Positions 4,836 to 49,232 of a stretch of 62,550 nucleotides of DNA are shown piece by piece; positions within the stretch are counted from its first letter, which is position 1; the number at the start of each line of letters is the position of its first letter. Source of the DNA: a virus. The stretch is from positions 1 to 62,550 of the IMG/VR virus record IMGVR_UViG_3300049793_000080. One strand, 5' to 3'. The notes under the pieces are model-generated. The model was not told the origin of the DNA. It saw only the letters and a list, made by a program, of their open reading frames with translations, and made no database searches. Position numbers and translations under genes: made by a program.

Positions 4836-5323
4836 TCGAGGACAAGCTGACGCTTCAATGGCTCCTGGACCGCGCCGAGGACGATGGCGGCGGGTGCTTG
4901 GTGTGGACTGGCTCGGCCAACAACGGCAAGGAGCCGCGCACGATGCTGGCTGGCCAGCGCATTCTGGTGCGCAAGGAAATCTGGCTGCTGGCGCACGAGG
5001 GCTGCACGCCGCCCGCCGGCGCATTCTTCGGGGTGAACTGCCGGACACCCAAGTGCGTGCACCCGGACCATGTGGTGGCCAGGACGCGCCAGCAGGCGCT
5101 CAAGGGCTGTGCGCGCAACCCGGACGCGGCGCTGCGGGCCACGCTGACCATTCGCGCCAAGTCCAAGCTGCAGCAGGATCGCGTCGACATGATCCTTGCG
5201 GACGAGCGGCCCGCCACGCAGGTGGCGCCGGAGCACGGCATCAGCGCGGCGATGGTGAATTTCATCCGGGCTGGCAAGATGCGCCGCCCGATTGGTGGCC
5301 TGTTCTCCGGGTTGATGCGATGA
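4832..5323 (+). CDS. HNH endonuclease-like protein with C-terminal HTH
   Basis: The 163-residue protein starts at a GTG overlapping the previous TGA. Residues about 15-80 follow the HNH homing-type pattern: GGCLVWTGSANNGK, then RKEIWLLAHEG, then VNCRTPKCVHPDHV. The CVHPDHV segment supplies the Cys/His pair and resembles the NxxHLxxG end of HNH nucleases. Residues 120-155 (QDRVDMILADERPATQVAPE... SAAMVNFIRAGK) form a helix-turn-helix. The nuclease-plus-HTH layout is typical of mobile phage endonucleases, yet the gene sits in a coupled replication operon. Confidence 0.65.
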   Translation: MIEDKLTLQWLLDRAEDDGGGCLVWTGSANNGKEPRTMLAGQRILVRKEIWLLAHEGCTPPAGAFFGVNCRTPKCVHPDHVVARTRQQALKGCARNPDAALRATLTIRAKSKLQQDRVDMILADERPATQVAPEHGISAAMVNFIRAGKMRRPIGGLFSGLMR

Positions 5324-5667
5324 AAGTCACCATCCCCATGATGACGAAGGGCTCCAATGCCCGCGAGCATCACATGCAGCGCTCCAGGCGCGTGAAGGCC
5401 GAGCGCAGCAACGTGGCCTGGATGCTGAACACGTGCAAGCTGGGCGCGCCGCCATTTCCGTGCACCGTCACACTGACGCGCCTGGGCCCGAACACAAAGC
5501 CGCTGGACGAGGGCGACAACCTGCCGCAAGCGCTCAAGGGGGCGCGCGATGAGGTGGCGCATTGGCTGGGCGTGGACGATGGCTCCAAGCTGGTGGCGTG
5601 GAAGTACGCGCAGCGCCGCGAGAAATATTGGGCGGTGGAAATCGAGATTGAATGGAGCGCGCCATGA
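5320..5667 (+). CDS. RusA-like Holliday junction resolvase
   Basis: The 115-residue protein has the RusA pattern. The acidic cluster DEGDNLPQALKGARDEVAHWLG (about residues 64-85, D-x-x-D-N-x5-K-x3-D) is followed by a DDGS segment and a basic C-terminal strand, YAQRREKYWAVEIEIEW. In RusA, equivalent Asp residues bind the metal ions that cleave four-way junctions. The length matches the family (about 120). It is coupled to its neighbours by ATGA overlaps and would serve recombination-dependent replication or packaging together with the RecE-like system on the other strand. Confidence 0.75.
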   Translation: MKVTIPMMTKGSNAREHHMQRSRRVKAERSNVAWMLNTCKLGAPPFPCTVTLTRLGPNTKPLDEGDNLPQALKGARDEVAHWLGVDDGSKLVAWKYAQRREKYWAVEIEIEWSAP

Positions 5668-6110
5668 CGCAAGACGACGCCATTGTTTCCGGCGCCACCG
5701 CTGGCCTGCGCATGCTGGCAGACGGCACCATCCGGCTGAGCGTGGACTTCGAGCCGGGCGACGCGCAGGCCGCCATGCAACTGTTCGGCAAGATCGGCCA
5801 GCCGCTGGGCGTGGCCGCGCTCAAGGTGGGGCACGCGGCGGCAGGCGCGAAGAAGGACGACCCGCGCGGGCCGCTGTGCATGGAGGCGATCAGCCTGTGC
5901 GCCAACCAGAAGTTTCAGGAGTGGATAGCGCACGCCGCAGACGCCGGATTCAACTGGAAGCCGACCGCCGACGCCGCCAAAGGGTTCATTCTGAGCCGGT
6001 GCGGCGTCGAATCTCGCAAGGAGCTGGACGAGAGCCACATTGCGGCGAACCTGTTCCGCAACATCACGCGCGCGTTTCAAGAGTGGGTTCGCAACGTGGA
6101 CCGGGCATGA
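5664..6110 (+). CDS. Conserved-looking early protein, unknown function
   Basis: The 148-residue protein starts at the ATG overlapping the resolvase stop. The first half looks beta-rich (LRMLADGTIRLSVDFEPGDA followed by a helix AAMQLFGKIG). The C-terminal half is helical, with SLCANQKFQEWI and a GFILSRCGVESRKELD segment reminiscent of small DNA-binding or recombination accessory proteins of other phages. No domain name can be supported. Confidence 0.6.
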   Translation: MTQDDAIVSGATAGLRMLADGTIRLSVDFEPGDAQAAMQLFGKIGQPLGVAALKVGHAAAGAKKDDPRGPLCMEAISLCANQKFQEWIAHAADAGFNWKPTADAAKGFILSRCGVESRKELDESHIAANLFRNITRAFQEWVRNVDRA

Positions 6111-6586
6111 AAAATTCTGGCTTCAAGAAAGCGGTGTACGTGCCGCCCGCGCCGGCGCCGATCCGCCCGCTCGAGAGCCCGCCGAACTACGGCCGCAACA
6201 CCGCCATGGCCCCGGTGCCCAAACGCCCAGCGCTGCGCAATCAGTACCTGCGCGATCTGGCGCGAGGCGAGGAGTGCTCGGTGAAGATCGGCGGCGCCTG
6301 CGCGTGCCAACCCGAGACGGTGGTGTGGGCGCACACGAACACCTTGGCCGACCAGAAGGGCTTGGGCTACAAGGCGAGCGACGAACAGGGGTTCTTCGCA
6401 GGCCACGAGTGCCACACCGCAATCGACGCTCGGAAGCTGAGCCCCGAGGCGGTGGATCTGTTGGTAATCACGGCGCAACTGCGCACGCGCGAGCGCCTGC
6501 GCGAAATCGCGGACAGCTATTCGGCTCCGCAGTGGAAGCAGAAGGCGGCCATGTGGGCGCTGACCAACCTGGAGAGAAAGCCATGA
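6107..6586 (+). CDS. DUF1364 (YbcO-like) nuclease-type protein
   Basis: The 159-residue protein carries the DUF1364 signature at residues 42-105. It runs NQYLRDLARGEECSVKIGGAC, then ETVVWAHTN, then GLGYKASDEQGFFAGHECH and TAID. The Cys and His residues (C52, C58, C60, H70, H101, C102 and H103 approximately) fit a zinc-binding beta-beta-alpha-metal nuclease fold like lambdoid YbcO. It sits two genes after the RusA-like resolvase, mirroring the nin-type clusters of lambdoid phages. Confidence 0.75.
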   Translation: MKNSGFKKAVYVPPAPAPIRPLESPPNYGRNTAMAPVPKRPALRNQYLRDLARGEECSVKIGGACACQPETVVWAHTNTLADQKGLGYKASDEQGFFAGHECHTAIDARKLSPEAVDLLVITAQLRTRERLREIADSYSAPQWKQKAAMWALTNLERKP

Positions 6587-6947: not shown

Positions 6948-7253
6948 ATGTCGAAGATCCTGCCCACCGTGGGCCGAAACCTGTACTACCAGCCGGGCCC
7001 GGGGGAGATACTGGAAATCATCCAGCACCCGCCGAAGGACGACGAGGACAAATCGCAGCCGCTGCACGCGCACATCCTGTACGTGCACGACGAGCGCCAC
7101 GTCACGCTGGAGGTGGTCGACCACATCGGCAACCGTCACGCGCGCGGCGACGTGGTGCTGTGCCAGGACGGCGAGGTGCCCGACGAGGGCGGTGAATACT
7201 GCTACTGGATGCCGTATCAGACCTCGACAGCGAAAGAGGCCAAGCAATCATGA
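6948..7253 (+). CDS. Hypothetical protein, beta-rich
   Basis: A 101-residue protein with GGAGAG upstream of ATG 6948. The N terminus (GRNLYYQPGPGEI) and the strands HAHILYVHDERHVTLEVVD and MPYQTST are typical of small beta-barrel phage proteins seen next to Gp49-family genes. It is coupled by ATGA to the Gp49-RyR gene and may work with it. Confidence 0.6.
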   Translation: MSKILPTVGRNLYYQPGPGEILEIIQHPPKDDEDKSQPLHAHILYVHDERHVTLEVVDHIGNRHARGDVVLCQDGEVPDEGGEYCYWMPYQTSTAKEAKQS

Positions 7254-7942
7254 ACAACATCGAATCCCCCAACAACACCGACTCCAGCATCGAGCAGGAG
7301 ATTCAGGCCAAGGGCAAGACGGCGCCGCGCGTCACGCAGGCCGACTTCGACGCGAACATCATCAGCAGCGAAATCGTCAAGCATGTGTCGCCGTCAGGGC
7401 AGATCCTGCGTTGGGCCGTCATCACCACCGCCAGCGGCTTTGCCGTGACCGGCGACCCCTCGGCCGCAGTGTCGGCTGAGAACGACGACGCCAGCATCGG
7501 CGAACGCATCGCCATCGACAACGCGCGCAACAAGTTGTGGCCGATGATGGGCTACGAGCTCAAGCAGCGGCTGCACGAAGTCAGCAACGGCAATCTGGTG
7601 CGCCGCATCGCCCGCATGTGCCATGAAGTCAACAAGGCGTACTGCGAGGCGCTGGGCGACTTCAGCCAGCCGGCATGGGAAGACGCGCCGCAATGGCAGA
7701 AGGACAGCGCGATCACCGGCGTGTGCCTGCACATGATCAACCCGGACGCTGGCCCGCAGGCATCGCACGAGAGCTGGATGGCGCAGAAGGTGGACGACGG
7801 CTGGGTGTACGGTGCGGTGAAACGCCCGGAGGCCAAGGAGCACCCTTGCATCGTGCCGTTTGCCGATCTGCCGACCGCACAGCAGGCCAAGGACTTCATC
7901 TTCCGCGCCGTGGTGCACGCGGCTGTGGCTGACGCGCCATGA
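7250..7942 (+). CDS. Gp49-family protein fused to a RyR domain
   Basis: The 230-residue protein has two parts. Residues about 25-95 (VTQADFDANIISSEIV... LRWAVITTASGFAVTGD) match the phage Gp49-like family. Residues about 120-225 form a RyR domain: CHEVNKAYCEALGDFSQPAW, CLHMINPD, HESWMAQKVDDGWVYGAVK, HPCIVPFADLP and a final QAKDFIFRAVVH helix. In animals RyR domains occur in calcium channels. Prokaryotic and phage copies are proposed to bind nucleotide-derived ligands. The next gene is a Tad2 homologue, so the pair may deal with host nucleotide-signal immunity; that link is inference. Confidence 0.8.
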   Translation: MNNIESPNNTDSSIEQEIQAKGKTAPRVTQADFDANIISSEIVKHVSPSGQILRWAVITTASGFAVTGDPSAAVSAENDDASIGERIAIDNARNKLWPMMGYELKQRLHEVSNGNLVRRIARMCHEVNKAYCEALGDFSQPAWEDAPQWQKDSAITGVCLHMINPDAGPQASHESWMAQKVDDGWVYGAVKRPEAKEHPCIVPFADLPTAQQAKDFIFRAVVHAAVADAP

Positions 7943-8205
7943 GCTTCGCTGTTCTCACCTTCCCCGAGGCCATGACGCTGGCGCTTGCCACCGGCGCCAA
8001 GGTGGCCCGCCAGGGCTGGAACGGCAAGGGGCAGCACGTTCGCATGACGCAGGGCACCCAGCGCTTTCGATTTACGCTGGAGGACTTCGTGGAGTACGTG
8101 GACGCGGACCCGTTCATGGTGCTGTGCAACGCGCAGGGGCGCTACGTGCCGTGGGCGCCAAGCCAGGGGGATTTGGTGGCGGTCGATTGGATGGAACTGC
8201 CATGA
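7939..8205 (+). CDS. tad2: Tad2 family protein (DUF2829), putative anti-Thoeris
   Basis: The 88-residue protein matches the DUF2829/Tad2 pattern. It has FPEAMTLALATGAKVARQGW and NGKGQHVRM at the N terminus, a DADPFMVLCNAQGRYVPWAP segment, and the closing SQGDLVAVDWMEL. Tad2 proteins sequester the cyclic ADP-ribose-type signal made by Thoeris ThsB and so block that defence. The Trp-Asn-Gly-Lys-Gly motif and the C-terminal SQxDxxAxDW motif, both diagnostic, are intact. It is coupled to the RyR-domain gene by ATGA. The family match is confident; the exact ligand cannot be told from sequence. Confidence 0.8.
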   Translation: MSFAVLTFPEAMTLALATGAKVARQGWNGKGQHVRMTQGTQRFRFTLEDFVEYVDADPFMVLCNAQGRYVPWAPSQGDLVAVDWMELP

Positions 8206-8495
8206 GCGACGGCGCCTTCTATGCGATGGACCAACGACCGCGGTGGAGGCGCCTGCTTTCGCGTCTCTTCCCGCGCGATGCGTTCCAGGGGCTGGACGCG
8301 CCGACTCCCGGCATGTGCGTTGGCGAGATTTACACGCACGTCGAGGTGGATCTCGGTTGGCGTGATCTTCTGCGGCTGCTGGTGAGTGGGCGCGCGCACA
8401 TCGAGGTTCGCCTGGAGACGGACGCGCTGGTGAACAAGACGCGCAGCAGGGCGATGTTCACGGCGCTGCCGCCGAAGTGGCTGGAGCGGCAATGA
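8202..8495 (+). CDS. Hypothetical protein
   Basis: A 97-residue protein with a basic N-terminal third (RPRWRRLLSRLFPRD) and a beta-like second half (GEIYTHVEVDLGWRDLLRLL, AHIEVRLETDA). It is coupled on both sides, to the Tad2 gene and to the Tat-signal gene. The function is unknown. Confidence 0.55.
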   Translation: MSDGAFYAMDQRPRWRRLLSRLFPRDAFQGLDAPTPGMCVGEIYTHVEVDLGWRDLLRLLVSGRAHIEVRLETDALVNKTRSRAMFTALPPKWLERQ

Positions 8496-35975: not shown

Positions 35976-38900
35976 ATGGACATCACCGCGGCACGCAGCT
36001 TGCCCGAACTCGCCGGCCTGGACGACGATCAGATCGTTGACGCACTCCATCAGGCCTATTACCCCGACCTCCCCCGAGATGAAGTAGCCAAGTCGCTTGG
36101 CATCAAGCCCACGGCCGCGCCGCGCCCGGAGACGACCTGGGGCGACCGTGCGAAGGACACCGGCATCAGCTTGCTGCAAGGCGCCGTGGCGGTGCCCCAG
36201 GCGGCGGTGGGCGTTGCGGATCTGGTGACCGGCGGCGCGGCGGGCAAGCTGGCCGAGGATGTCGGGTTCCGACCGAAAGAGGCGACCGACTTCCTGGGCG
36301 AGCGCTTGAGCGACGCGCAGAAGGGCGCGAACAAGGAAGTGCAGGACGCCGAGGGCTTTTGGGGCACCTTCAAGGCCGCCGTCTCCAATCCTTCGGTGGT
36401 GTTCCAGTCGGTGGTGCAGTCGCTGCCTTCCATGGGCGCGGGCGGCGTGGTGGCGCGCGGCGTGCTGGGCGCGAGCATGACGCCGCGCCTGCTGGCCAAG
36501 CTGTCGGCCATGGCCCCCGAGGCGCGCGAAGCCGCCATCCTGGGCATGCAGACCACCGCCGGCGCCGTGGGCGAGGGCGCCGTGCAGGCCGGCAGCGCCG
36601 CCGAACAGGCGCGCACCGACAACCCGCTGGGCACGCTGGACGGCAAGGGCGCGCTGTCGGCCGTGGCCAGCGGTGTGGGCGACACCATCATCGCCCGGTT
36701 CAGCGGGCGCCTCGCCAACAAGCTGGGCATCGCGGACGCGGACACCATGCTCGCTGGCGCCGCGGTGAACCCGCGCGCGGCCAAGAGCGTGGTGAAGGCC
36801 GCGCTCGGCGGCATGGTGACCGAGGGCTTGCTCGAGGAACTGCCGCAGTCGGTGCAGGAGCAGGTGTGGCAGAACCACGCAGCCGGCCGCCCGCTCGATG
36901 AGGGCGTGAATCAAGCCGCCGTGCTGGGCATGCTGTCCGGCGCGGCGATGGGCGGCGGTGCCAACCTTCTGAACGCGGCTCGAAAGCCGAAGCCCGACGA
37001 CATCCTGAACGCGCCGGACGTCGACGCCGCGCTGCAGACCGCGCAGGACGCGCTCCTGTTGCCCCCGCCGACGATCAGCGTCACGCTGGGCGGTACCGCC
37101 GTCACGCCGGAGCAGCGCGCGGATCTGGTGCAGCAGGAAATCACGCGCCGCGCCGCCGGCATGATGGGCGGCGAGGACGTCACCGATGTGCAGGCCAAGG
37201 GCACGCCGCCGGTGGAAGTGCCTCCGACGACGCCACCCTCGACCCCCCCAGCCTTCCCGGACCCGTTCAGCGCCGCCAAGCCGGTGGACCTGGACGCGAA
37301 CGAAGCGCGCATGCACCGCGACGCCGACCGCGACGCCCAGGCGCTCAAGGAGCACGACCCGCTGACCCTGCCGCGCAAGGGTCTGCCGGAGCTGGACGCC
37401 GAGTACGGCAAGGGCGAGGGCGACACGATCCAGAAGAACGGCGCGCCGTGGCCCAGCGAAGCGGCGGCGATGCTGTCGCTCAAGATGGCCAAGAAGAAGG
37501 GCCGCGCCGTGCCGGTGGCCGGCGGCTTCATCGCGCGACCGAACAAGGAGACACCCAATGCAGCGCCCACCCCTGAAAACAAGCCTGACGGCGCTCGCGG
37601 CGCACAGCCTGCTGCAGCAGCACCGGCCACCGACGCCGCCACTGCCCAGCGACCCGACGATCAGCATGGAGGACTTCCTGCGCCCGACACGGGAATTGCA
37701 GGCGGCAGTGCGGCGGCTGTCGCGACCCAGCCCGCGCCCGGCGGGCAAGTCGTGGGCGCAGGCGACGCTGCGCGCACACCTGGAGACGGTGTACTACGGC
37801 CAGTCAATGACGCGGCTGTGGATGGAAGAGATGAACGGCCAGCCGATGGCCGAGCGAGTGGACCCGTATCCGCACCCGTGGCAGCGGGAGCAAATGACGC
37901 GGGAACAACTACTGGCGCTGCAAAAACCGGAAGTGAGCAATCACTAACCGAAGCTGGCGCGCAATGGACCCGCATGACGGAAATCGAGCGCCGCGCCGTT
38001 GCGGGCCGCACGGCAGGTAAGGCGAAGGCGCTAGATCGCATCGTCTCGCAGAAGTGGGAAGACCTACATTCCGGCTGGCAGAAATCCCTCGCGCGGGTGA
38101 TGAACACGCCCGGCGCGCCGATTGCTCCACGTGAAACGTCAGCGCCCACTTCGCACCCAACCGCCAGCGCAGGTCCGCGCGTCATCATCAATCGGCTCGG
38201 CCCTGATGGTCTAACCGACGCCGAGCGCGCGGCTGGCAAGCCGTCCTATGCCGACAAGCCCGCCGAGGTGACGAGCGAGACGGCGCGACGCGGCGATTTC
38301 AACGTCAAGAACCACCTGGGCAAGATGGAGCGCGCGACCGTGACCGAGGGCGGCACACGCGGCCGGTTCGCCGTCAAGATCGGCGGCGAGTCCATGGGCC
38401 AGTTCCAGATGGACGACCAGGGCGCGGTGAGCCGCATCGAGGCGCGCGCCAACTGGGCCGAGGATTCCGTGCGTGACGCGGCGATGCAGTTCGTCGCGCA
38501 GGAGCGCGCCAAGACGGCACCGGCCGCCGCCGAGCAGCCGCGCGACCAGGACACCGGGCAGTTCGCGGAAGCCCCGGCCGACACGCTCCCCGCTGGCGTG
38601 CGTCGCCGCGAGAAGGGTGTGGCAAACACCAAGGCGCGCATCGCAGCCGAGGCGGCCCGCGCGGCGTACTTCACGCCCGGCAACGTGGTGCGCGGCTATG
38701 GCGGCTTCGATGAGGTGCTTGCGTACAACCCGCCCACCGAGCCCGGAGGCGCATGGAGCGTGCGCGTGCACGAAGTCAAGGAAGCCACGCCCAACAACTG
38801 GGTGCGCGTGGGCCGCCCCCAGGACGCGCGACAGCACAGCACCGAGCCGGAGGAGCGCGAGCTGCGCAACGGGCCGCGCGCCCAGTTGTCGGCCCTGCCC

Positions 38901-41900
38901 GCCAGCGAAGTGCCGTACACCGTGCCGCGTGCCGATGGCAAGGTGCACCCGGATGCCGAGCCGCGCAGCAACCCGCGCGCCGCAGCCGAGCCCGCCAAGA
39001 TCGTGACCGACAAGGCCGAGATTCGCCCATACCGCCGCTCGGACGGCAGCGTGGGCTACGAGGCCGTGCCGATCCAGCCGCCGGCCGCGCCGAATGACGA
39101 ATTGATCGTTCAATCCATTCGACCCGGCTCCAAGCCGCACGTTGTCAAGGTGGAGCCTGCGCCCGCCGCTAGCACAAACAAGGTGTTCACCGACGAGATG
39201 GCCGCCGCAGCGCGCGCCCGCCTCAAGGCCAAGCTGGGCCGGCTGAATTCGCTGCTGGACCCGCAGGACATGCTCGACGGCATCACGCTGGCCGGCTACC
39301 ACGTCGAGAAGGGCGCGCGCAGCTTCGCCGCCTTCGCGCAGGCCATGCTCGCGGATCTTGGCGAGGGTGTGCGCGCCCACCTCAAGAGTTTTTACATGGG
39401 CGTGAAGTATTCGCCCGCCGCGGCCGAGTTCTCCAAGGACATGAGCAGCGCCGCGTTCGTGGAGGAGTTCGACCTGTCGCATATCGCGGCGCCGTCCGAC
39501 ACGGACACCCTTGAAACTCAGCCGCCCGCGGCAGATACTGGAGCCAATGATGGAAGCAGCAGCCCAACACTCGACGTGGATCGCGCAGGCCCGGGGCCAC
39601 TGGAAGGAGCACCTTCCGGGGATGTACGCGCGCCTGCAGGAGAGCGGAAAACTGGAGACGGCACTGGCCGAAGCAGCGACGGCGACCAGCGAGGGGATGC
39701 ACGCCCTGATGCAGCAGGGGGCAACGTGGCAGGAGGCGTGGGAGCAGGTGCGGGAACAGTACCTGTTTCCACCGGAGGAGCCGAGCAAGGAAAAGGCCCC
39801 GCCAAGCCAAGGGTACCGCGTACACCGCGAGCTGATGGCGGGCCTGGGCTCTTTGACGATGCCGGGGGAACGGGAGGAGTAAACCCGGCCCCGAACGCCG
39901 CGCCCACGCCGGCGCCGCAGTTCAAGCCGTCCGAGGACTTCACCATCGAGGATGACCTCGCGCTGGGTGACGGCGGCGAGAAAACCAAGTTCAAAAACAA
40001 CGTGGCGGCGATTCGCCTGTTGCGCGAGCTCGAAGCGGCCGACCGCATGGCGACACCCGACGAGCAGCGCACGCTCGCCCAATACGTGGGCTGGGGCGCC
40101 TTGTCCAAGGCATTCGACGCTGACCGCGCGGAATGGGCCAAGGAGCACGCCGAGCTCAAGGATCTGCTGTCGCCCGAGGAGTTCGCCGCAGCGCGGCAAT
40201 CCACCCGCTACGCGCACTACACCAGCCGCCAGATCATCCAGGACGGCGTTTATGCCGCGCTGCATCACTTCGGCTTCACCGGCGGGCGCGTGCTCGAGCC
40301 GGGCGCCGGCGTGGGCAACTTCATCGGCATGATGCCCGCCGACATGCGCAGCGCGGGCCGCATCACGGCCATCGAGCGCGAGCCCATCGCCGCCGGCATC
40401 GCCAAGAACCTGTACCCGCTGCAAAACGTGCAGCAGGCCGACTTCACCGCGTTCAAGGGCACCGATGGCTATTTCGACGCGGTGGTGGGCAACCCGCCGT
40501 TCGCCTCCGACCCGCAGACCGACACCAGCGGGCGCAAGCACCTGGGCGGCCTGACCCTGCACAACTACTTCTTCGCCAAGAGCGTGGACCTGATGCGCGA
40601 GGGCGGGATCTTGGCGCAGGTGGTGACCAACTCGTTCATGGACGCGGCCGGCGACCGGGCCCGCAAGTACATCAGCGACCGCACCAAGCTGATGGGAGCC
40701 ATCCGCCTGCCGAACAACGCATTCAGCAAGAACGCGGGCACCGAGGTGACGACCGACATCATCTTTCTGCAAAAGCGCCCGGAGGCCGAGTGGGGCAACA
40801 AGGCGACGCGCCAGGAAGCCAAGGCGTGGCTGGACGTGGTGAAGCAGACCGACCGGCGCAACGGCGGGCAGTACAACCTCAACCAGTATTTCATCGACCA
40901 CCCGGAGATGATGCTCGGCGACTTCGGCGCGCACGGCACGATGTACGGGCCCAACCAGCCGGCGCTCATCGCCCGGCCGGGGCAGGACACGCTCGCACTG
41001 CTCCGCGAGGCGGTGCAGCGCCTGCCGGGCAATGTGTTCGTGGACCGTGCGGTGCTCGGCACCGACGCGGCCATCGAGAACGCCACCAAGGCCCTGACGA
41101 ACCCGCCGGTGCAAGAGGGCGGCTTCTATGTCGAGGGCGACAAGCTGATCCAGCGCGTACCCGACATTGCCGGCGAGCCGCGCGGCCGGGAAATCAACGC
41201 CGCAACGCAGTGGACTGCCAAGACGCCGCTGGGGGAGGCGGGCTACCAGAAGATCCGCGCGCTCACGCAGATGCGCACCACGCTGCGCGGACTGCTGGCG
41301 GCCGAATTGTCCGGCGACAAGGACATGGACGCCCTGCGCACGACGCTGGGCAAGCAGTACGACGACTACACCAAGGCGCACGGCCTGCTGGGCGACCCGG
41401 GCACCGCGCGCGTCTTCGATGACGACCCGGATTTCCCGCTGCTGCTGTCCCTGGAGCACGAGTACCGGCCCGGCATCGGCATGGCCGCGGCCAAGCGCCA
41501 GGGCATCAAGCCGACCAAGAGCGCGGCGAAAAAGGCGCCGATCTTCATGCGCCGCGTGGTCGACGCGCGCAAGCCGGTGCAGAAGGTGGAGACGCCCGCC
41601 GACGCGCTGGCCGTCTCGATGGCCGAGCGCGGCAAGCTCGATACCGTCTACATCGGCCAACTGCTCGGCAAAGACCCGCAGGAGGTGTTGAAGGAGCTGA
41701 GCACCGGCGACAAGCCGCAGCTGTTCCTGGACCCGGCGACCGACGAATACGCGCTGCGCGACGCCTACCTGTCGGGCAACGTGCGCGCGAAGCTGGAGCA
41801 GGCCAAGCAGTCCGGGCTGAGCATGAACGTGCGCGAGCTGGAGAAGGTGCAGCCCGAGGACGTGGGCGCGCATGAAATCTCGGCGCGCATCGGCTCGCCG

Positions 41901-44900
41901 TGGGTGCCCACCAGCGTCTACGAGGACTTCGCCAAGGAATTGTTCGGCGAAGGCTCGACGGCCCGCGTGCACTACATGGCGCTCAATAGCTCGTACACGA
42001 TCAGCACGTCCGGCACCAACGAGGTGAACACCACCAACAAGTGGGGCACGCCGCAGTACTCCGGCCCGGAGCTGATGTCCGCGCTGCTGAACAACCGCAC
42101 CATCCGCGTGATGCACCCGAAGGTGGGCGACACGCCGGCGTCGCTGAACGTGGAGGCCACCGATATGGCCAACACGAAGGCGCAGGAAATCCGCGACCGC
42201 TTCCAGGATTGGCTCTTTGCCGAGCCGGAGCGTTCCGAGCTGCTCGTGCGCACGTACAACGACACGAACAACAACTACGTGACGCGCAACTATGACGGCT
42301 CGTGGATGACGTTTCCGGGCAAGGTGCCCAATTCCGTGTTGCCGGGCGACGGCGGCATTTCGTTTCGCCGCCACCAGCGCAACGCCATCGCGCGTATCGT
42401 GCAGGACCGCACCGCGCTGCTCGACCACGTAGTCGGCGCTGGCAAAACCTTCACCATCGTCGCCGCGGCAATGGAGCTGCGCCGCACCGGGCTGGCCAAG
42501 AAGCCGCTCGTGGCCGTGCCGAACCACCTTGTGAAGCAGTGGGCCGCCGACTTCTACCGGCTGTACCCGGGCGCCAACATCCTCACGGCCACGAAGAAGG
42601 ACTTCGAGAAGGTCAACCGCCGCCGCTTCCTTGCCAAGATCGCAACGGGCGACTGGGACGCCGTGGTGATCGCGCACAGCTCCTTCGGCTTCATCAAGCC
42701 GGGCGCGGAATTCGAGGCCGAGTTCAACGAGCGGCAGGTGAAGATGATCATGGACACCATCGCCGCGGTGCAGGACGGCGATGGTGAGAAGGCGCAAAAG
42801 AAACGCACCGTCAAGCAACTCGAGGGCATGAAGGAGCGGCTGCAAAACCGCATCAAGAGCCTGCGCGACAAGGCGATGGACGACCTGCTGGACTTCGAGC
42901 AGCTCGGCGTCGATCAACTGTTCGTTGACGAAGCCCACATGTTCAAGAACCTGATGTTCACCACGAAGATGCAGGGCGTCTCAGGGCTGGGCGATGGGTC
43001 GGGCTCGCAGCGCGCCTACGACATGTACGTGAAAAGCCAGGAGGTGCTGGAGAAGAACGGGCGCGGCCAGGGGCTGGTGTTCGCGACCGGCACGCCAGTG
43101 TCCAACTCGCTGGGCGAGAAGTACCACATGATGCGGTACCTCATGCCCCGGCAGATGGAAGAACTGGGCTTCCAGTCGTTCGACGCCTGGGCCAACACCT
43201 TCGCCGCCGTGCAGCAGGTGTGGATGCAGAAATTCAGCGGCGACGGCTACAAGCCGCAAAACCGCATGAGCGATTTCGTGAACGTGCACGAGCTGCTGAA
43301 AATGTTCGATCAGGTGGCCGACACGGTGACGCTGGACGACATCAAGAAGGCGTACAAGGAGGAGAACAACGGCGAGGAGTTCCCGATCCCGCGCGTGAAG
43401 ACCGGGCGGCGCCAGCCGGTCAGCCTGGAGAAGTCGGCCGCGCAGATCGCCTACATGGAGCACATTGCCGCGCGCGCCAAGATCCTCGAAGCGCGCAGGG
43501 GCCCGCCGCGCAAGGGTGATGACAACGCGCTGGTGATCATGGGCGACGCACGCAAGGCGGCGATGGACATTCGCCTGATCAGCCCGGCCAAGCTGCGCAA
43601 GGCCATCGGCTATGACGTGGACGGCCGCGACCCGGGCGGGCGCATCGACCGCAGCGCGCAGGAAATCCACCAGCGCTATCAGCAGTGGAACCACGTGAAG
43701 GGCACGCAGCTGGTGTTCGCGGACCTGGGCACGCCCGTCGAGCACGCGGCCACCGAGTTGAAGGAGTACGAGGCGCTGATGGAGCGCATCAACGCCGCGA
43801 CCGATGATGTTCGCCTGCGGGCCGAGCTTGGGGCGGAAGACGCACTGGTGATCGTGAATGATGCCGAGGACGCGCAAGCCGACATCGACGTGAAGGGCCA
43901 GGACTGGCTCGACGGCATCGAGGCGGCGCAACGCGGGTTCAGCATCTACGACGACTTGAAGGCGGCGCTGATCGAGCGCGGCATGCCCGAGGACCACATC
44001 GCGTTCATCCACGACTACGGCAACGATGAACGCAAGGCGACGCTGTTTCGCAAGGTGAACGCGGGCGACATCCGCGTGCTGATCGGCTCCACCGCGAAGA
44101 TGGGCGCTGGCACCAACGTGCAGGAGCGCATCGTGGCCGAGCACCACCTGGACGTGCCGTGGCGCCCGAGCGACGTGGAGCAGCGCGAGGGCCGCATCGA
44201 GCGCCAGGGCAATAGCCTGCTGTGGACGCCGCAGAACCCGAACGGCATCAAGGACTTCGAGGTGGAAATCTTGGCCTACGTGACCAAGGACACCCTGGAC
44301 ATGCGCATGTGGCAGATCCAGGAGGTGAAGCTCAAGATGATTCACCAGCTGCGCACGCGGCAGATTTCGCGCGACATCGACAACGCTTTCGAGGACATGG
44401 AAATGTCGGCCGGCGAGATGCAGGCCGCGGCGACCGGCAACATGGACCTGTTGCGCGAGATTCAGGCGCGCAGCGATATCAAGAAGCTGGAGCAGAAAAA
44501 GCGCAGCTTCGACGCCCAGCGCTCGGACCTCATCAACCGCAAGAAGCGCGCCGCCGAAAAGCTCGCGCAGCTGCCCGCGCAAATCAAGGGAGCCGAGGTG
44601 TTGGCCGAGGGCTCGCGGGAGTACCGCAAGGCACTGGAGGACAACGCCGAGAGCTTCAAGGTCACCATCGACGGCAAGGACTTCACCGACCGCCATCTGG
44701 CCAGCGCCTACCTGCTGGACAAGATCGACGGCAAGATTTACGTGCGCACGGTGGAAAAGGACGGCAAGAAGCTGCGCGAGGAAATCAGCGCCGAGCAGTG
44801 GGCCGCGCTGCCCACCGGCGACGAGCGTGCGTTCTATGACCCGAAGGCCGCGCCGCTGGACCTGACCATGAACGGCGATCTGTTCACCGCCCGCGCAAAG

Positions 44901-47900
44901 CTGCAGGAGGCGTGGAGCAACGTCGCGGGCGACCGCGAGCCCATCGTGTGGGAGTACCAGGGCAAGACATTCAACCGGCGCACCGCGCTGGCCGTGGCGC
45001 AGCGCCAAGCCGTGGCCGACGCCGTGGCAGACGAGAAGGAAGTGGACCTGGGAAAAGTCGGCCCGTTCGCGGTGACGGCCGAAGGGCAGACCGGCAAGTG
45101 GGGCAAGTTCCTGGACGTGGTGATGACGTACAAGGGCCGCAAGATCGAGGGCGACATCGGCGTGCCCGAGGGCGACGTCTCCACGCAACTGGCCGAGCGG
45201 ATGGCGTCTTGGGCCAGCCGCAAAGCCGAGCACGCGGCCGATGACCTGCAATACCTGAAAGGCGACCTCGAGCGCGCGCAAAAGCAGAAGGCCGAGCTCG
45301 ACGCGGCCGACGATGTGGGCGACGTGTGGCCCGAGCAGAGCAAGCTGGAGGAAGCGCGAAACCGCCACAAGGCCATCCTCGCGCGTCTGGGCGGCCAGAA
45401 GGACGCGCCGCCAGCCACCGGCGACGAGCCGGCGTTCGGGCAGGGCGCAGCCACCGGCGGCATGAGCCCCGCGCTCGCGCAGCACGCGGCCGACACGGTG
45501 GCATCCGTGTGGGACAACGCGCCGCAGATCGTGGCGCTGCCCTCCATCGCGCGCGCACCGCAGAAGGTGCAGGACGACGCACGCCGGCGCATGGAGCGCG
45601 GCGGCGGCAAGCCCAAGGCCGTCTTCTATGACGGCACGGTGTACCTGTTCGCTGACGCGCTGGCCAGCCCGGCCGAGGCGGTGGAGTACACCTATCACGA
45701 AGTCCTGGGTCACTTCGGCATGCACGGGCACCTTGGCCCCGAGTTGGACAAGGAATTGAAGGCCGTCGCCACGCTGCGCAAGGAAGACATCAGCGCGATG
45801 TACGAGCGCACCGGCAAGGAGCGCAGCGCCGCGATGGATCTGCGCATGGCCGAGGAGGTGGTGGCCTACATGGCGCAGACCAAGCCCGAGCTGTCGCTGG
45901 TGCGCCGCGTCATCGCTGCCATCAAGAACTTCCTGCGCGACCACGTGCCGGGCTTCGGCTCGCTGAACATGAGCGACGCGGACATCATCCAGAAATTCGT
46001 ATTACCTGCTCGCCAGTTCGTGGAGGGCGCCCCAACGGACCCGAATGGCGGCGGCGAGTTCGATCCTGCGTTCGGTCAAGCGCGAGGCTTGAATTCACGA
46101 GAAATCCAGGTCAATGGAAAGTGGAGGCCCATCGAGACGGCCGGCGGCGAACTGATCGCGCCCACGTTCCATGGGCAAAGCGAATTTTGGAAAAAGCACG
46201 CCGACGCCTTCGCGCTGGATGACAAGGGCCGGCCGAAAGCAACGCCGGCAGAAATCAAGGCGCTGATGGGCGACAACCCTGACGATGCGATGTTCGCCCA
46301 GGGTGCGCCGCTGAACGATCCGCGCGCCTTGTGGGGACGCGCCAAGCAAAGCCTTGCGGACATGAGCAGCGCGCCGGGCACGATGCACTGGTGGAATAAA
46401 AGCATTGGCACGGAATATCACCTTGCGCAGAAGTACCCGGCGTTCAAGGCCGTGTTCGACCGCGTGCAGGACTTCATCAACGACTCCAGCCTGTACGCCA
46501 ACGAGGCGGCCGATCTAGCCCGCACCATCCTGCCGAAACTAGAGGGCTGGCGCGATGTGGTCCCGAAGCTGCTGGGCGGGAGCGGCAAGTCGCCTATTTC
46601 TGCCGCGTTCAATCGGCAGATCCAGGCGCCCATCAACGAGGGGACGCTGATCTGGACGCGCGGGGAGGACGGCAAGCCCGTGCGAGTAGATGAGTTGGAG
46701 AAGGCTGCCGACAAGATGAGCGCCGACCAGAAGGCGCAGGCCATGTTGCGCGCGGGCAAGCTGCCTGAGAGCGTGTTGAAAATGTGGCGCGGCCTTCCGC
46801 TGGATCAGTACCAGCAGGCCGTCTCCACTGCCTACAAGAACCGGATGTTGACCCCGGGCATCGTGTGGACGGACGCGGAGTTGCGCGAGAAATTCGGACT
46901 CGGCGCCGCACAGATCGCCCTGTACCGCGAGTTCCGCGCCGCGGTGGACCGCAGCATCACGCAGCTCGCCGTGAGCGACTTGGTGCGCTTTGTCGGGCAG
47001 GATGGCGACTTCATCCGCGATCAGGTGCTGGCTGCGCCGGATGTGATGACGGCCGCCAAGATGCTCGTGCAGCAGATCGACCAGCTTATCGTGGACAACC
47101 CCGAGCGGCAGGACGTTCTCAACGACACGGCCGCCAAGGTCAAGTTGAAGGCCGACAAGGCGCATGAACTGATCCAGCGCGGGTATGCCCCGCTGTCTCG
47201 CTTCGGGCACTACACGATCACCGTTCGGGCAAAGAGCGATGACGGCGAGCCCGGCGAGGTGCTGTACTTTGGCATGTACGAGAGCCGCCCGGAAGCCGCG
47301 AAGGCTGCGCGGCAGCTCGCCGCGGAAGAAGACTTCCAAGGCGCAACGCTGGTGCGCGGCACGATCAGCCACGAGCAATACAAACTGTTCGCCGGCGTGA
47401 ACCCCGACACCATTGAGCTGTTCGGAGAAATGCTCGGCCTGGAGGGCGCGGGCAATGCAGCATCCGATCAGGCGTTCCAGCAGTTCTTGAAGTCGGCGCG
47501 CAGCAACCGCAGCACGATGAAGCGGATGATTCATCGCAAGGGCACGGCGGGATTCTCCGAGGACGTTCCGCGCGTGCTGGCGTCCTTCCTTTACAGCAAC
47601 GCACGCCAAGCCAGCCGGAACCTGCACTCTCTGGAAATCGACCGCATGGGCAACGAGATTGCGCAGGCAGAGGGCGAGTTGAAGGATCATGCCGTCAAGC
47701 TGATCGACTACGTGAAGAACCCCGTGCAGGAGGCGCATCAGTTGCGTGGACTGCTATTCGCGCAGTTTCTTGGCGGGAGCATCGCATCCGCCATGGTCAA
47801 CATGAGCCAGCCCTTCATGATGACGCTGCCCTACCTGTCGCAGTTCGGTGCACGCGAGGCCGTCTCGAATTTCAAGTGGGCGTTGCTTCACGGATGGAAG

Positions 47901-49232
47901 GACACCACTGGCGACCCGACCTTGGACGCGGCGATCAAGCGGCGCGTGGAGGACGGCACCATCGCGCCCCATGAAGTTCATCAACTCCTTGCGCAATCGC
48001 TGGGCAAGGCCGAACTGAAATCAGGCGACGGCACGCTCACCGGCGATGCGGCGGCACAGGCGAATAACGCGCTCGCGCGGCTGCAGCTCGGATGGGGAAA
48101 GTTCTTCTCGACCGCCGAGCTTTTCAATCGGCGCGTCACCTACGTGGCCGCCTACCGCCTCGCCAAAGAAAAGAAGATGGCCGACCCGGACGCCTTTGCC
48201 AAGAAGGCGGTGGACGAGAGCCAGGGCGTTTACAACAAGGGCAACAAGCCTGTATGGGCCCGCGGCGCGGTGGGCAGTGTCGCGATGACGTTCAAGCAGT
48301 ACAGCATCGCGTACTTGGAGTTCGTCGCGCGCATGTGGACCGCAGGAGAGCCGGGAAGCCCGGAGCGAGCGGCCGGTCAGCGCGCGGTGTACTTCGCTGC
48401 CGCCATGCTGCTGATGATGGGCGGCGCCGGCGGCCTGCCGTTTGAAGACGATGTGGCCGATGTGGTGGACGGCATCATGCAACGCCTGGGCTACAACTGG
48501 AACACGAAGCAAAAGCGCCAGGAGATGCTGGAGAAGGCATTCGGTCGCGGCTTCGGGCACGTGCTGGAGAAGGGTGTTTCTGGTCTGCCGGGCGTGCCGA
48601 TTGATGTCGCCGGCCGCTTCGGTATGGGCAACCTCATCCCCGCCACCGGGCTGCTGCAAAAGAAGGCCGATCACACCAGCGACGTTCTGGAAATCGGAGG
48701 CCCGGCCGCGAGCCTCGCCAAGCGATTCTTCCAGGCCAGCAACCTCGCGGCGGAAGGCCGAATCGTGGACGCCGGCTTGCTGGCCTCGCCGGTCGCCGCG
48801 TCCAACATCGCCAAGGCCATCGACATGGCATCGAGCGGTATCTACAAGGACAGTGCGGGCAAGAAGGTGATGGACGTCGACGGCTGGGATGCCATGTCGA
48901 AACTGATCGGGTTCCAGCCTTCTGCCGTGGCGCGCGTCCAAGATGCCGACCGATCCGCGCAGGTGATGGTGGAGCAGGTGAAGATGCGCGAACGGGAAAT
49001 CTCGCAGCAGTGGGCGCAGGCGCTTGCTGACGGGGATCGGGATGGTGCGACCAAGGCGCGCGAAGCCATCGCGGCGTGGAATGCCAAGAACGAGGACACC
49101 CCCATAAAAATCAAACTTGGAGATGTGCTGCGCCGCGCGAAAAACATGCGAATGGATCGCGCGACGCGCATCGAGAAAAGTGCGCCAAGCGAAGTTCGCG
49201 GAACCGTTCGGGAAATGCTGCGCGAACCGTAG
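35976..49232 (+). CDS. Giant polyvalent virion protein (DarB-like methylase/helicase, zincin, PLxRFG)
   Basis: The single 4,418-residue ORF makes up over a fifth of the genome. Visible modules in order are as follows. The N terminus resembles structural ejection proteins, with GMMGG at about 395. Low-complexity linkers lie at about 520-660 and 1190-1305. An N6-adenine methylase is marked by VLEPGAGVGNF (about 1437) and NPPF (about 1506). A SNF2/superfamily 2 helicase has Walker A GAGKT (about 2153), DEAH in VDEAHMFKN (about 2315) and QREGRIERQG (about 2733). A zincin-like HEVLGH lies at about 3240 and the PLSRFG signature at about 3738; a helical C-terminal region follows. Phage P1 DarB, with methylase and helicase domains, protects incoming DNA from type I restriction, and Bcep22-type phages carry a virion-borne counterpart of about 4,600 residues. 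Ejection with DNA, entry and restriction protection are the likely roles. Two ORFs are nested in its +1 frame. Confidence 0.9.
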   Translation: MDITAARSLPELAGLDDDQIVDALHQAYYPDLPRDEVAKSLGIKPTAAPRPETTWGDRAKDTGISLLQGAVAVPQAAVGVADLVTGGAAGKLAEDVGFRPKEATDFLGERLSDAQKGANKEVQDAEGFWGTFKAAVSNPSVVFQSVVQSLPSMGAGGVVARGVLGASMTPRLLAKLSAMAPEAREAAILGMQTTAGAVGEGAVQAGSAAEQARTDNPLGTLDGKGALSAVASGVGDTIIARFSGRLANKLGIADADTMLAGAAVNPRAAKSVVKAALGGMVTEGLLEELPQSVQEQVWQNHAAGRPLDEGVNQAAVLGMLSGAAMGGGANLLNAARKPKPDDILNAPDVDAALQTAQDALLLPPPTISVTLGGTAVTPEQRADLVQQEITRRAAGMMGGEDVTDVQAKGTPPVEVPPTTPPSTPPAFPDPFSAAKPVDLDANEARMHRDADRDAQALKEHDPLTLPRKGLPELDAEYGKGEGDTIQKNGAPWPSEAAAMLSLKMAKKKGRAVPVAGGFIARPNKETPNAAPTPENKPDGARGAQPAAAAPATDAATAQRPDDQHGGLPAPDTGIAGGSAAAVATQPAPGGQVVGAGDAARTPGDGVLRPVNDAAVDGRDERPADGRASGPVSAPVAAGANDAGTTTGAAKTGSEQSLTEAGAQWTRMTEIERRAVAGRTAGKAKALDRIVSQKWEDLHSGWQKSLARVMNTPGAPIAPRETSAPTSHPTASAGPRVIINRLGPDGLTDAERAAGKPSYADKPAEVTSETARRGDFNVKNHLGKMERATVTEGGTRGRFAVKIGGESMGQFQMDDQGAVSRIEARANWAEDSVRDAAMQFVAQERAKTAPAAAEQPRDQDTGQFAEAPADTLPAGVRRREKGVANTKARIAAEAARAAYFTPGNVVRGYGGFDEVLAYNPPTEPGGAWSVRVHEVKEATPNNWVRVGRPQDARQHSTEPEERELRNGPRAQLSALPASEVPYTVPRADGKVHPDAEPRSNPRAAAEPAKIVTDKAEIRPYRRSDGSVGYEAVPIQPPAAPNDELIVQSIRPGSKPHVVKVEPAPAASTNKVFTDEMAAAARARLKAKLGRLNSLLDPQDMLDGITLAGYHVEKGARSFAAFAQAMLADLGEGVRAHLKSFYMGVKYSPAAAEFSKDMSSAAFVEEFDLSHIAAPSDTDTLETQPPAADTGANDGSSSPTLDVDRAGPGPLEGAPSGDVRAPAGERKTGDGTGRSSDGDQRGDARPDAAGGNVAGGVGAGAGTVPVSTGGAEQGKGPAKPRVPRTPRADGGPGLFDDAGGTGGVNPAPNAAPTPAPQFKPSEDFTIEDDLALGDGGEKTKFKNNVAAIRLLRELEAADRMATPDEQRTLAQYVGWGALSKAFDADRAEWAKEHAELKDLLSPEEFAAARQSTRYAHYTSRQIIQDGVYAALHHFGFTGGRVLEPGAGVGNFIGMMPADMRSAGRITAIEREPIAAGIAKNLYPLQNVQQADFTAFKGTDGYFDAVVGNPPFASDPQTDTSGRKHLGGLTLHNYFFAKSVDLMREGGILAQVVTNSFMDAAGDRARKYISDRTKLMGAIRLPNNAFSKNAGTEVTTDIIFLQKRPEAEWGNKATRQEAKAWLDVVKQTDRRNGGQYNLNQYFIDHPEMMLGDFGAHGTMYGPNQPALIARPGQDTLALLREAVQRLPGNVFVDRAVLGTDAAIENATKALTNPPVQEGGFYVEGDKLIQRVPDIAGEPRGREINAATQWTAKTPLGEAGYQKIRALTQMRTTLRGLLAAELSGDKDMDALRTTLGKQYDDYTKAHGLLGDPGTARVFDDDPDFPLLLSLEHEYRPGIGMAAAKRQGIKPTKSAAKKAPIFMRRVVDARKPVQKVETPADALAVSMAERGKLDTVYIGQLLGKDPQEVLKELSTGDKPQLFLDPATDEYALRDAYLSGNVRAKLEQAKQSGLSMNVRELEKVQPEDVGAHEISARIGSPWVPTSVYEDFAKELFGEGSTARVHYMALNSSYTISTSGTNEVNTTNKWGTPQYSGPELMSALLNNRTIRVMHPKVGDTPASLNVEATDMANTKAQEIRDRFQDWLFAEPERSELLVRTYNDTNNNYVTRNYDGSWMTFPGKVPNSVLPGDGGISFRRHQRNAIARIVQDRTALLDHVVGAGKTFTIVAAAMELRRTGLAKKPLVAVPNHLVKQWAADFYRLYPGANILTATKKDFEKVNRRRFLAKIATGDWDAVVIAHSSFGFIKPGAEFEAEFNERQVKMIMDTIAAVQDGDGEKAQKKRTVKQLEGMKERLQNRIKSLRDKAMDDLLDFEQLGVDQLFVDEAHMFKNLMFTTKMQGVSGLGDGSGSQRAYDMYVKSQEVLEKNGRGQGLVFATGTPVSNSLGEKYHMMRYLMPRQMEELGFQSFDAWANTFAAVQQVWMQKFSGDGYKPQNRMSDFVNVHELLKMFDQVADTVTLDDIKKAYKEENNGEEFPIPRVKTGRRQPVSLEKSAAQIAYMEHIAARAKILEARRGPPRKGDDNALVIMGDARKAAMDIRLISPAKLRKAIGYDVDGRDPGGRIDRSAQEIHQRYQQWNHVKGTQLVFADLGTPVEHAATELKEYEALMERINAATDDVRLRAELGAEDALVIVNDAEDAQADIDVKGQDWLDGIEAAQRGFSIYDDLKAALIERGMPEDHIAFIHDYGNDERKATLFRKVNAGDIRVLIGSTAKMGAGTNVQERIVAEHHLDVPWRPSDVEQREGRIERQGNSLLWTPQNPNGIKDFEVEILAYVTKDTLDMRMWQIQEVKLKMIHQLRTRQISRDIDNAFEDMEMSAGEMQAAATGNMDLLREIQARSDIKKLEQKKRSFDAQRSDLINRKKRAAEKLAQLPAQIKGAEVLAEGSREYRKALEDNAESFKVTIDGKDFTDRHLASAYLLDKIDGKIYVRTVEKDGKKLREEISAEQWAALPTGDERAFYDPKAAPLDLTMNGDLFTARAKLQEAWSNVAGDREPIVWEYQGKTFNRRTALAVAQRQAVADAVADEKEVDLGKVGPFAVTAEGQTGKWGKFLDVVMTYKGRKIEGDIGVPEGDVSTQLAERMASWASRKAEHAADDLQYLKGDLERAQKQKAELDAADDVGDVWPEQSKLEEARNRHKAILARLGGQKDAPPATGDEPAFGQGAATGGMSPALAQHAADTVASVWDNAPQIVALPSIARAPQKVQDDARRRMERGGGKPKAVFYDGTVYLFADALASPAEAVEYTYHEVLGHFGMHGHLGPELDKELKAVATLRKEDISAMYERTGKERSAAMDLRMAEEVVAYMAQTKPELSLVRRVIAAIKNFLRDHVPGFGSLNMSDADIIQKFVLPARQFVEGAPTDPNGGGEFDPAFGQARGLNSREIQVNGKWRPIETAGGELIAPTFHGQSEFWKKHADAFALDDKGRPKATPAEIKALMGDNPDDAMFAQGAPLNDPRALWGRAKQSLADMSSAPGTMHWWNKSIGTEYHLAQKYPAFKAVFDRVQDFINDSSLYANEAADLARTILPKLEGWRDVVPKLLGGSGKSPISAAFNRQIQAPINEGTLIWTRGEDGKPVRVDELEKAADKMSADQKAQAMLRAGKLPESVLKMWRGLPLDQYQQAVSTAYKNRMLTPGIVWTDAELREKFGLGAAQIALYREFRAAVDRSITQLAVSDLVRFVGQDGDFIRDQVLAAPDVMTAAKMLVQQIDQLIVDNPERQDVLNDTAAKVKLKADKAHELIQRGYAPLSRFGHYTITVRAKSDDGEPGEVLYFGMYESRPEAAKAARQLAAEEDFQGATLVRGTISHEQYKLFAGVNPDTIELFGEMLGLEGAGNAASDQAFQQFLKSARSNRSTMKRMIHRKGTAGFSEDVPRVLASFLYSNARQASRNLHSLEIDRMGNEIAQAEGELKDHAVKLIDYVKNPVQEAHQLRGLLFAQFLGGSIASAMVNMSQPFMMTLPYLSQFGAREAVSNFKWALLHGWKDTTGDPTLDAAIKRRVEDGTIAPHEVHQLLAQSLGKAELKSGDGTLTGDAAAQANNALARLQLGWGKFFSTAELFNRRVTYVAAYRLAKEKKMADPDAFAKKAVDESQGVYNKGNKPVWARGAVGSVAMTFKQYSIAYLEFVARMWTAGEPGSPERAAGQRAVYFAAAMLLMMGGAGGLPFEDDVADVVDGIMQRLGYNWNTKQKRQEMLEKAFGRGFGHVLEKGVSGLPGVPIDVAGRFGMGNLIPATGLLQKKADHTSDVLEIGGPAASLAKRFFQASNLAAEGRIVDAGLLASPVAASNIAKAIDMASSGIYKDSAGKKVMDVDGWDAMSKLIGFQPSAVARVQDADRSAQVMVEQVKMREREISQQWAQALADGDRDGATKAREAIAAWNAKNEDTPIKIKLGDVLRRAKNMRMDRATRIEKSAPSEVRGTVREMLREP
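37558..37947 (+). CDS. Nested ORF A in the +1 frame of the giant gene
   Basis: This 129-codon ORF lies entirely within the giant gene, whose own frame here encodes a disordered Ala/Gly/Asp/Pro linker. An ideal Shine-Dalgarno AAGGAG (37545-37550) lies 7 bases before ATG 37558. From Met 37 onward the product looks like a real protein (MEDFLRPTRELQAAVRRLSR, TLRAHLETVYYGQSMTRLWM, then PYPHPWQREQMTREQLLALQ), with aromatic residues and mostly G/C third bases in this frame. The protein is not recognised. Independent expression is likely but unproven. Confidence 0.6.
   Translation: MQRPPLKTSLTALAAHSLLQQHRPPTPPLPSDPTISMEDFLRPTRELQAAVRRLSRPSPRPAGKSWAQATLRAHLETVYYGQSMTRLWMEEMNGQPMAERVDPYPHPWQREQMTREQLLALQKPEVSNH
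39547..39882 (+). CDS. Nested ORF B in the +1 frame of the giant gene
   Basis: This 111-codon ORF is in the same +1 frame as ORF A and again lies over a disordered linker of the giant protein. CTGGAG (39538-39543) is 6 bases before the second ATG (39550). The product looks well ordered (HSTWIAQARGHWKEHLPGMY, ARLQESGKLETALAEAATAT, GATWQEAWEQVREQYLFPPE) and is helical, with many Trp and charged residues. That is unlike a random shadow frame, which in this genome gives Arg/Pro/Ala runs. I recall similar small phage/bacterial hypothetical proteins ending in REQYLxPPE, but no function. Confidence 0.65.
   Translation: MMEAAAQHSTWIAQARGHWKEHLPGMYARLQESGKLETALAEAATATSEGMHALMQQGATWQEAWEQVREQYLFPPEEPSKEKAPPSQGYRVHRELMAGLGSLTMPGEREE

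Follow-up and report, generated by a model that had tools for sequence, protein, structure and literature searches.

A phage operon that probably combines Acb4-RyR and Tad2 sponges against several immune signals

Acb4 forms a tetramer that soaks up the cyclic dinucleotides of CBASS; the available text of the preprint describing it equates its 1,331 homologues with Pfam family PF13876, reports that 3'3'-cGAMP was bound by all eight homologues assayed, and mentions that some homologues bear 'additional extensions', whose function is unexplained there (PMC11722364). RyDEP, the subject of a second preprint, is a phage RyR-domain glycosidase acting on 2'cADPR and 3'cADPR. In the parts of that source available, six of eight RyDEP homologues bound 2'/3'cADPR and none cleaved the signals, two homologues, assayed for sponge activity, let phages grow again in the face of Thoeris, and Q54 is among the RyDEP positions that were mutated (PMC13232231). 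The characterised Tad2 relatives take gcADPR or His-ADPR, according to the accessible portions of two papers (PMC12043709, PMC13299392).

The 62,550-base sequence analysed here, referred to as the window, is an entire IMG/VR record; its genes include those for terminase, head-tail connector, and major head proteins. We consider it likely that positions 6948-8205 form a phage anti-signalling operon, in which an Acb4-RyR protein and Tad2 would act as sponges that sequester multiple signals, a function assigned by homology. The initial annotation had placed a fusion of an RyR and a Gp49-like domain, followed by Tad2, at 7250-8205; the open reading frames are as it stated, and each domain scores above its Pfam cut-off. 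The features are as follows.

6948..7253, plus strand: gene of the phrog_2293 ('WMPYQ') family, 101 aa (PHROG match, neighbours, AF2 model)
7250..7253, plus strand: ATGA start/stop overlap between the 6948 gene and the fusion gene (sequence)
7250..7942, plus strand: Acb4-RyR fusion gene, 230 aa (Pfam PF13876 and PF02026, AF2 model)
7331..7573, plus strand: Acb4 domain (Phage_gp49_66, PF13876), residues 28-108 (E 3.9e-15)
7586..7933, plus strand: RyR (R12-like) domain, residues about 113-228 by structure and 171-215 by Pfam
7766..7894, plus strand: codon stretch of H173, W176, H198, and D215 (alignment to DyoEdafos gp78)
7939..7942, plus strand: ATGA start/stop overlap between the fusion gene and tad2 (sequence)
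7939..8205, plus strand: Tad2-like gene, 88 aa (Pfam PF11195, PDB matches)
8202-8205: 4-base ATGA overlap between tad2 and the gene at 8202-8495 (sequence)

The fusion gene and tad2 had been described as translationally coupled, with the neighbours 6948 and 8202 in the same run. The 4-base ATGA overlap at 7939-7942 is indeed present, but with the starts that we chose, seven of the nine consecutive gene junctions between 4922 and 8845 show a 4-base overlap; coupling is thus a trait of this entire stretch and not one particular to the pair. Both neighbours join the run through ATGA overlaps, and the 6948 family is conserved beside the domains. Gene 8202-8495, however, gave no Pfam or PHROG match, had no relatives in the loci collected, and lies outside any conserved unit that we found. 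PADLOC returned no match for the six proteins submitted, and no Acb2/Tad1 hairpin was found in the window record. Just upstream of the module, positions 6107-6586 encode a YbcO-like nuclease (PF07102) and positions 5320-5667 give a weak RusA-like match. Elsewhere in the window, a strong coding signal marks a single open frame 4,418 codons long (35976-49232, plus strand), which encodes a giant phage protein.

By homology, the 'Gp49' part of the 7250-7942 product is an Acb4 domain, and the product is an Acb4-RyR fusion. Phage_gp49_66 scores 56.6 bits against a curated cut-off of 27, with E 3.9e-15, and RyR (PF02026) scores 37.2 bits against a curated cut-off of 27.4, with E 3.4e-9; the family profile of the former also retrieved Acb4 9e4w from the PDB (E 1.5e-9). 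The AF2 model of the 230-aa fusion, built from 32 rows, has a pLDDT of 89.8 and a pTM of 0.62, the latter leaving the arrangement of the Acb4 and RyR domains unsure. In the model, one continuous long helix, residues 81-134, joins the two parts. Model residues 28-105 match Acb4 9e4w_N with a Z of 8.6 and an rmsd of 2.6 over 73 residues, a fold match that is supportive but not specific, since 2fgg also scores a Z of 7.8 against this part. Residues 113-230 match the RyR R12 and RyR-repeat structures, with Z up to 9.9 (6uhi).

The pocket of SPO1 Acb4 is only partly kept in the window domain: the equivalents of F48 and I66 are retained, whereas F62 is replaced by Asp and E49 by Ala, and in all K36, E49, V56, Y57, F62, N63, T70, and K81 differ. 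Most of these differing pocket sites also vary across the family, and Asp at position 62 occurs in other members. Cyclic-dinucleotide binding by the window domain is therefore uncertain, and the Acb4 part could instead be a degenerate scaffold that multimerises the RyR domain and no longer holds cyclic dinucleotides, leaving a module of RyR plus Tad2 that is anti-Thoeris only. The substitutions E49A and F62D fit such a scaffold, as do the tetramerisation of Acb4, described in the available text of PMC11722364, and the continuation of helix 81-134 into the RyR part of the model. We nevertheless judge it unlikely, because these pocket sites differ greatly from one family member to another and yet eight of eight homologues bound 3'3'-cGAMP in the assays given in that text (PMC11722364).

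In the preferred reading, that of a multi-signal sponge operon, the N-terminal Acb4 domain would oligomerise and sequester CBASS cyclic dinucleotides, the C-terminal RyR domain would be a sponge for 2'cADPR/3'cADPR, which are Thoeris signals, and Tad2 (7939-8205) would sequester Thoeris signals. Judged by homology, two classes of signal are probably handled by the one fusion protein, with Tad2 covering a third or an overlapping one. The gene products, if made together, would keep several nucleotide alarms from their effectors; for this scheme we infer ligand binding, ligand choice, expression timing, and translational coupling. The initial annotation had proposed an anti-signalling module whose Gp49-RyR protein 'senses or binds' a second signal. 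Binding is favoured by homology to the Acb4 and RyDEP families, but nothing points to a sensor.

The Tad2 assignment comes from a Pfam match over residues 7-86 of the 7939 ORF (PF11195, E 6.6e-19, 68.7 bits against a cut-off of 25) and from PDB matches to ModTad2 (9eib, 1.4e-8), SptTad2 (8wjd, 2.7e-7), and SPO1 Tad2 (8sme, 5e-6). The invariant core columns of the Tad2 alignment are kept in the window protein.

We then counted how often the domains lie together, using anchor-only scans with purpose-built HMMs; each fraction below gives the loci with the partner within 1 kb over the loci having that partner, counted as distinct loci where a distinct total is stated. Loci were made distinct by DNA deduplication, because hallmark genes, or RyR domains on their own, led single linkage to join nearly all of them. 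Around RyR anchors (80 viral loci, 50 distinct), the fractions were 14/16 for Acb4, 3/3 for Tad2, 5/6 for the 6948 family, and 6/6 for the Acb2-type hairpin; under another deduplication, Acb4 reached 15/17, where position by chance would give 0.142 (p 2e-11). Around Tad2 (80 loci, 73 distinct), they were 5/8 for Acb4, 4/4 for the Acb2-type, and 0/1 for the 6948 family, and RyR lay beside Tad2 at none of the 73 distinct loci. A smaller Tad2 scan of 36 loci gave Acb4 at 1/1 and no RyR. Acb4 anchors (80 loci, 69 distinct) gave Tad2 4/4, RyR 2/4, the 6948 family 2/2, and the Acb2-type 1/1, and anchors from the 6948 family (80 loci, 70 distinct) gave Acb4 11/12, Tad2 9/10, RyR 5/11, and no Acb2-type. 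Named genomes anchored on RyR (65) gave Acb4 5/8, Tad2 0/1 (4 kb away), the 6948 family 0/2, and the Acb2-type 3/3. In every scan set, the majority of loci carried none of these partners.

Direct RyR-Tad2 adjacency is the rarer link (3 of the 50 RyR-anchored loci), and the conserved links are Acb4-RyR and Acb4-Tad2. The Gp49-RyR/DUF2829 co-occurrence raised by the initial annotation accordingly stands for Acb4 beside RyR (14/16) and fares poorly for RyR beside Tad2 (3/50 and 0/73). In the first RyR scan of 80 whole records, the Pfam model found Tad2 in four, each at most 400 bases from RyR. A joined RyR-Tad2 query against named phages produced no true adjacent pair among the best 60 of 525 matches. 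A candidate pair in Erwinia phage phiEa2809 was rejected: the alignment had run past a stop, and the downstream stretch is not Tad2 by Pfam. Two RyR neighbour clusters, with 50 and 46 loci, were also discarded, since chaining and ORFs in the wrong frame had enlarged them. As a separate observation, Acb2/Tad1 hairpin genes (PF24729, confirmed for L305:9519-9752) occur at 16 of the 80 RyR-anchored viral loci, all 16 within 1 kb of RyR; phage RyR thus often has a signal sponge, known or likely, as its neighbour.

Tight packing of small accessory genes in phages might by itself have made these genes neighbours, the fusion being incidental and the roles unrelated. The 4-base overlaps at most junctions of the stretch would agree with this, and so would the positional control around Tad2, where three of five further recurrent families were likewise no more than 1 kb away in at least 80% of cases. 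Around the WMPYQ anchors, however, the 11/12 for Acb4 and 9/10 for Tad2 compare with a median fraction of 0.14 within 1 kb for 32 other families. Six of those 32 did lie within 1 kb in at least 80% of loci; several of the six, which overlie the module on the other strand, look like wrong-frame shadows. Native fusions in several combinations, named phages included, also speak against mere packing, which we regard as improbable.

A tally of these fusions over 478 loci (355 distinct), which includes the first scan, whose two-domain query favours fusions, found 70 distinct loci with at least two kinds of domain within 1 kb and 11 with at least three; the arrangements numbered 26. Same-frame fusions, counted with the window and the triple fusions included, joined Acb4 to RyR at nine distinct loci, Acb4 to the 6948 family at six, Tad2 to the 6948 family at four, RyR with the 6948 family at two, and Acb4 to Tad2 at one. 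All ten fused ORFs run through Pfam carried the expected known domains. Assembly error could lie behind some metagenomic fusions, but their recurrence and their presence in named phages argue against it for all of them. Among named phages, Bue1 (Erwinia) and FGH (Vibrio) have Acb4-RyR fusions, and Pmp13 and Pm86 (both Pasteurella) and, weakly, QDWS595 (Alcaligenes) have Acb4-Tad2 fusions. Separate neighbouring Acb4 and Tad2 genes are found in Klebsiella phage KP8, Escherichia phage Huey, and N4; in N4 (L499, 33632-34485), gp48 matches PF13876 (Acb4) and gp49 is Tad2-like, with a one-base overlap. In QDWS595 (L136:2438-2953), Acb4 is also fused to crAss001_48 (PF21825), beside the Acb4-like/Tad2 protein, possibly another partner domain.

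The upstream gene at 6948-7253 belongs to an uncharacterised family. Its protein matches phrog_2293 with E 8.1e-5, as do 12 of 12 members of the family alignment; Pfam gave no match for any of the 12, nor did NCBIfam for the four members checked. Relatives were obtained with the alignment as query, a scan with the single sequence having returned none. The AF2 model (pLDDT 80.5) is a small beta-barrel; Foldseek found no match at E<=1e-3 in the PDB or the viral models, and the best VIA match, with a Z of 6.4, is too weak for naming a fold. Pseudomonas phage PA8 (two records) is the only named-phage match, through a 268-aa protein without a Pfam match. At another locus (L453:10007-11275), a 6948-family domain, DUF2158 (PF09926), and Tad2 share one 423-aa frame.

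The phrog_2293 relatives adjoin, or natively fuse to, Acb4, RyR, and Tad2, and this repeated association with three known signal antagonists makes the family a candidate fourth. From these patterns, the family, with its SH3-like barrel and hallmark WMPYQ, may be a new immune-signal antagonist, an interchangeable domain that fuses with the other three into multi-signal sponges, such as the single proteins WMPYQ-Acb4-RyR and WMPYQ-Acb4-Tad2. We hold this tentatively and place it slightly short of an even chance. The role is assigned through guilt by association, and the domain could instead be a stabilising or targeting one.

Compared with RyDEP, the RyR domain of the window retains four aligned residues: H173, W176, H198, and D215 correspond to H75, W78, H100, and D117. 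Q54 is absent, its equivalent being Ser or Ala depending on the alignment; among 162 RyR rows it was found in one, RyDEP itself. Lacking Q54, the window domain is predicted to be a sponge and not a glycosidase. Identity of the domain to RyDEP is 40%; it rises to 58-60% with the RyR proteins from two other phages, V21 (Ruegeria) and CB4 (Pectobacterium). The record, possibly a fragment, had no match at E<=1 to PF04095 (NAPRTase) or PF13793 (Pribosyltran_N), which we take to cover the phage Adps/Namat enzymes of the NARP1 operon. The least probable reading of all is that the domain works as a glycosidase, converting cADPR signals to ADPR from which NAD+ is rebuilt, as in DyoEdafos. Both equivalents of the catalytic dyad, H173 and D215, are in place, but the Q54 site is Ser or Ala, none of eight assayed homologues cleaved signals in the available text of PMC13232231, and the absence of NAPRTase and Pribosyltran_N matches from this possibly incomplete record gives no sign of a NARP1 operon.

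The families themselves were already known; the combined protein, the conserved linkage, and the association of the 6948 family are new within the literature searched, which held few subscription papers, without supplements, and in which we found no earlier description of Acb4-RyR or Acb4-Tad2 fusions. Our results suggest that a single phage polypeptide, and a single operon, may combine sponges for CBASS cyclic dinucleotides and Thoeris cADPR, and such combined sponges could account for the extensions seen on some Acb4 proteins. The association also points to the phrog_2293 domain family, and N4 offers a laboratory-ready Acb4-Tad2 pair.

Acb4 of Bacillus phage SPO1 (gp1.3, PF13876) shares its Pfam family and predicted fold with window residues 28-105, but is a 96-aa stand-alone sponge, whereas the window domain is fused to RyR and has several pocket residues changed. 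RyDEP (Mycobacterium phage DyoEdafos gp78, PF02026) belongs to the same family as the window RyR domain and shares H75, W78, H100, and D117 with it; the window domain differs in its 40% identity, its lack of Q54, its fusion to Acb4, and the NARP1 genes not found in the record. The sponge-type RyDEP homologues H4 and H7 have the host genera Ruegeria and Pectobacterium, as do V21 and CB4, a match at genus level. The window Tad2 shares the conserved core of the Tad2 family (PF11195; AcrIIA7 in the PDB) and, at 88 aa, is about the length of ModTad2; in contrast to known Tad2, it lies directly behind an Acb4-RyR gene, and its ligand type is not predictable from sequence. In Escherichia phage N4, gp48 and gp49 are, as in the window, Acb4 and Tad2 from overlapping neighbour genes, but no RyR domain is present there, and the N4 Tad2 protein carries an N-terminal extension of ~80 residues.
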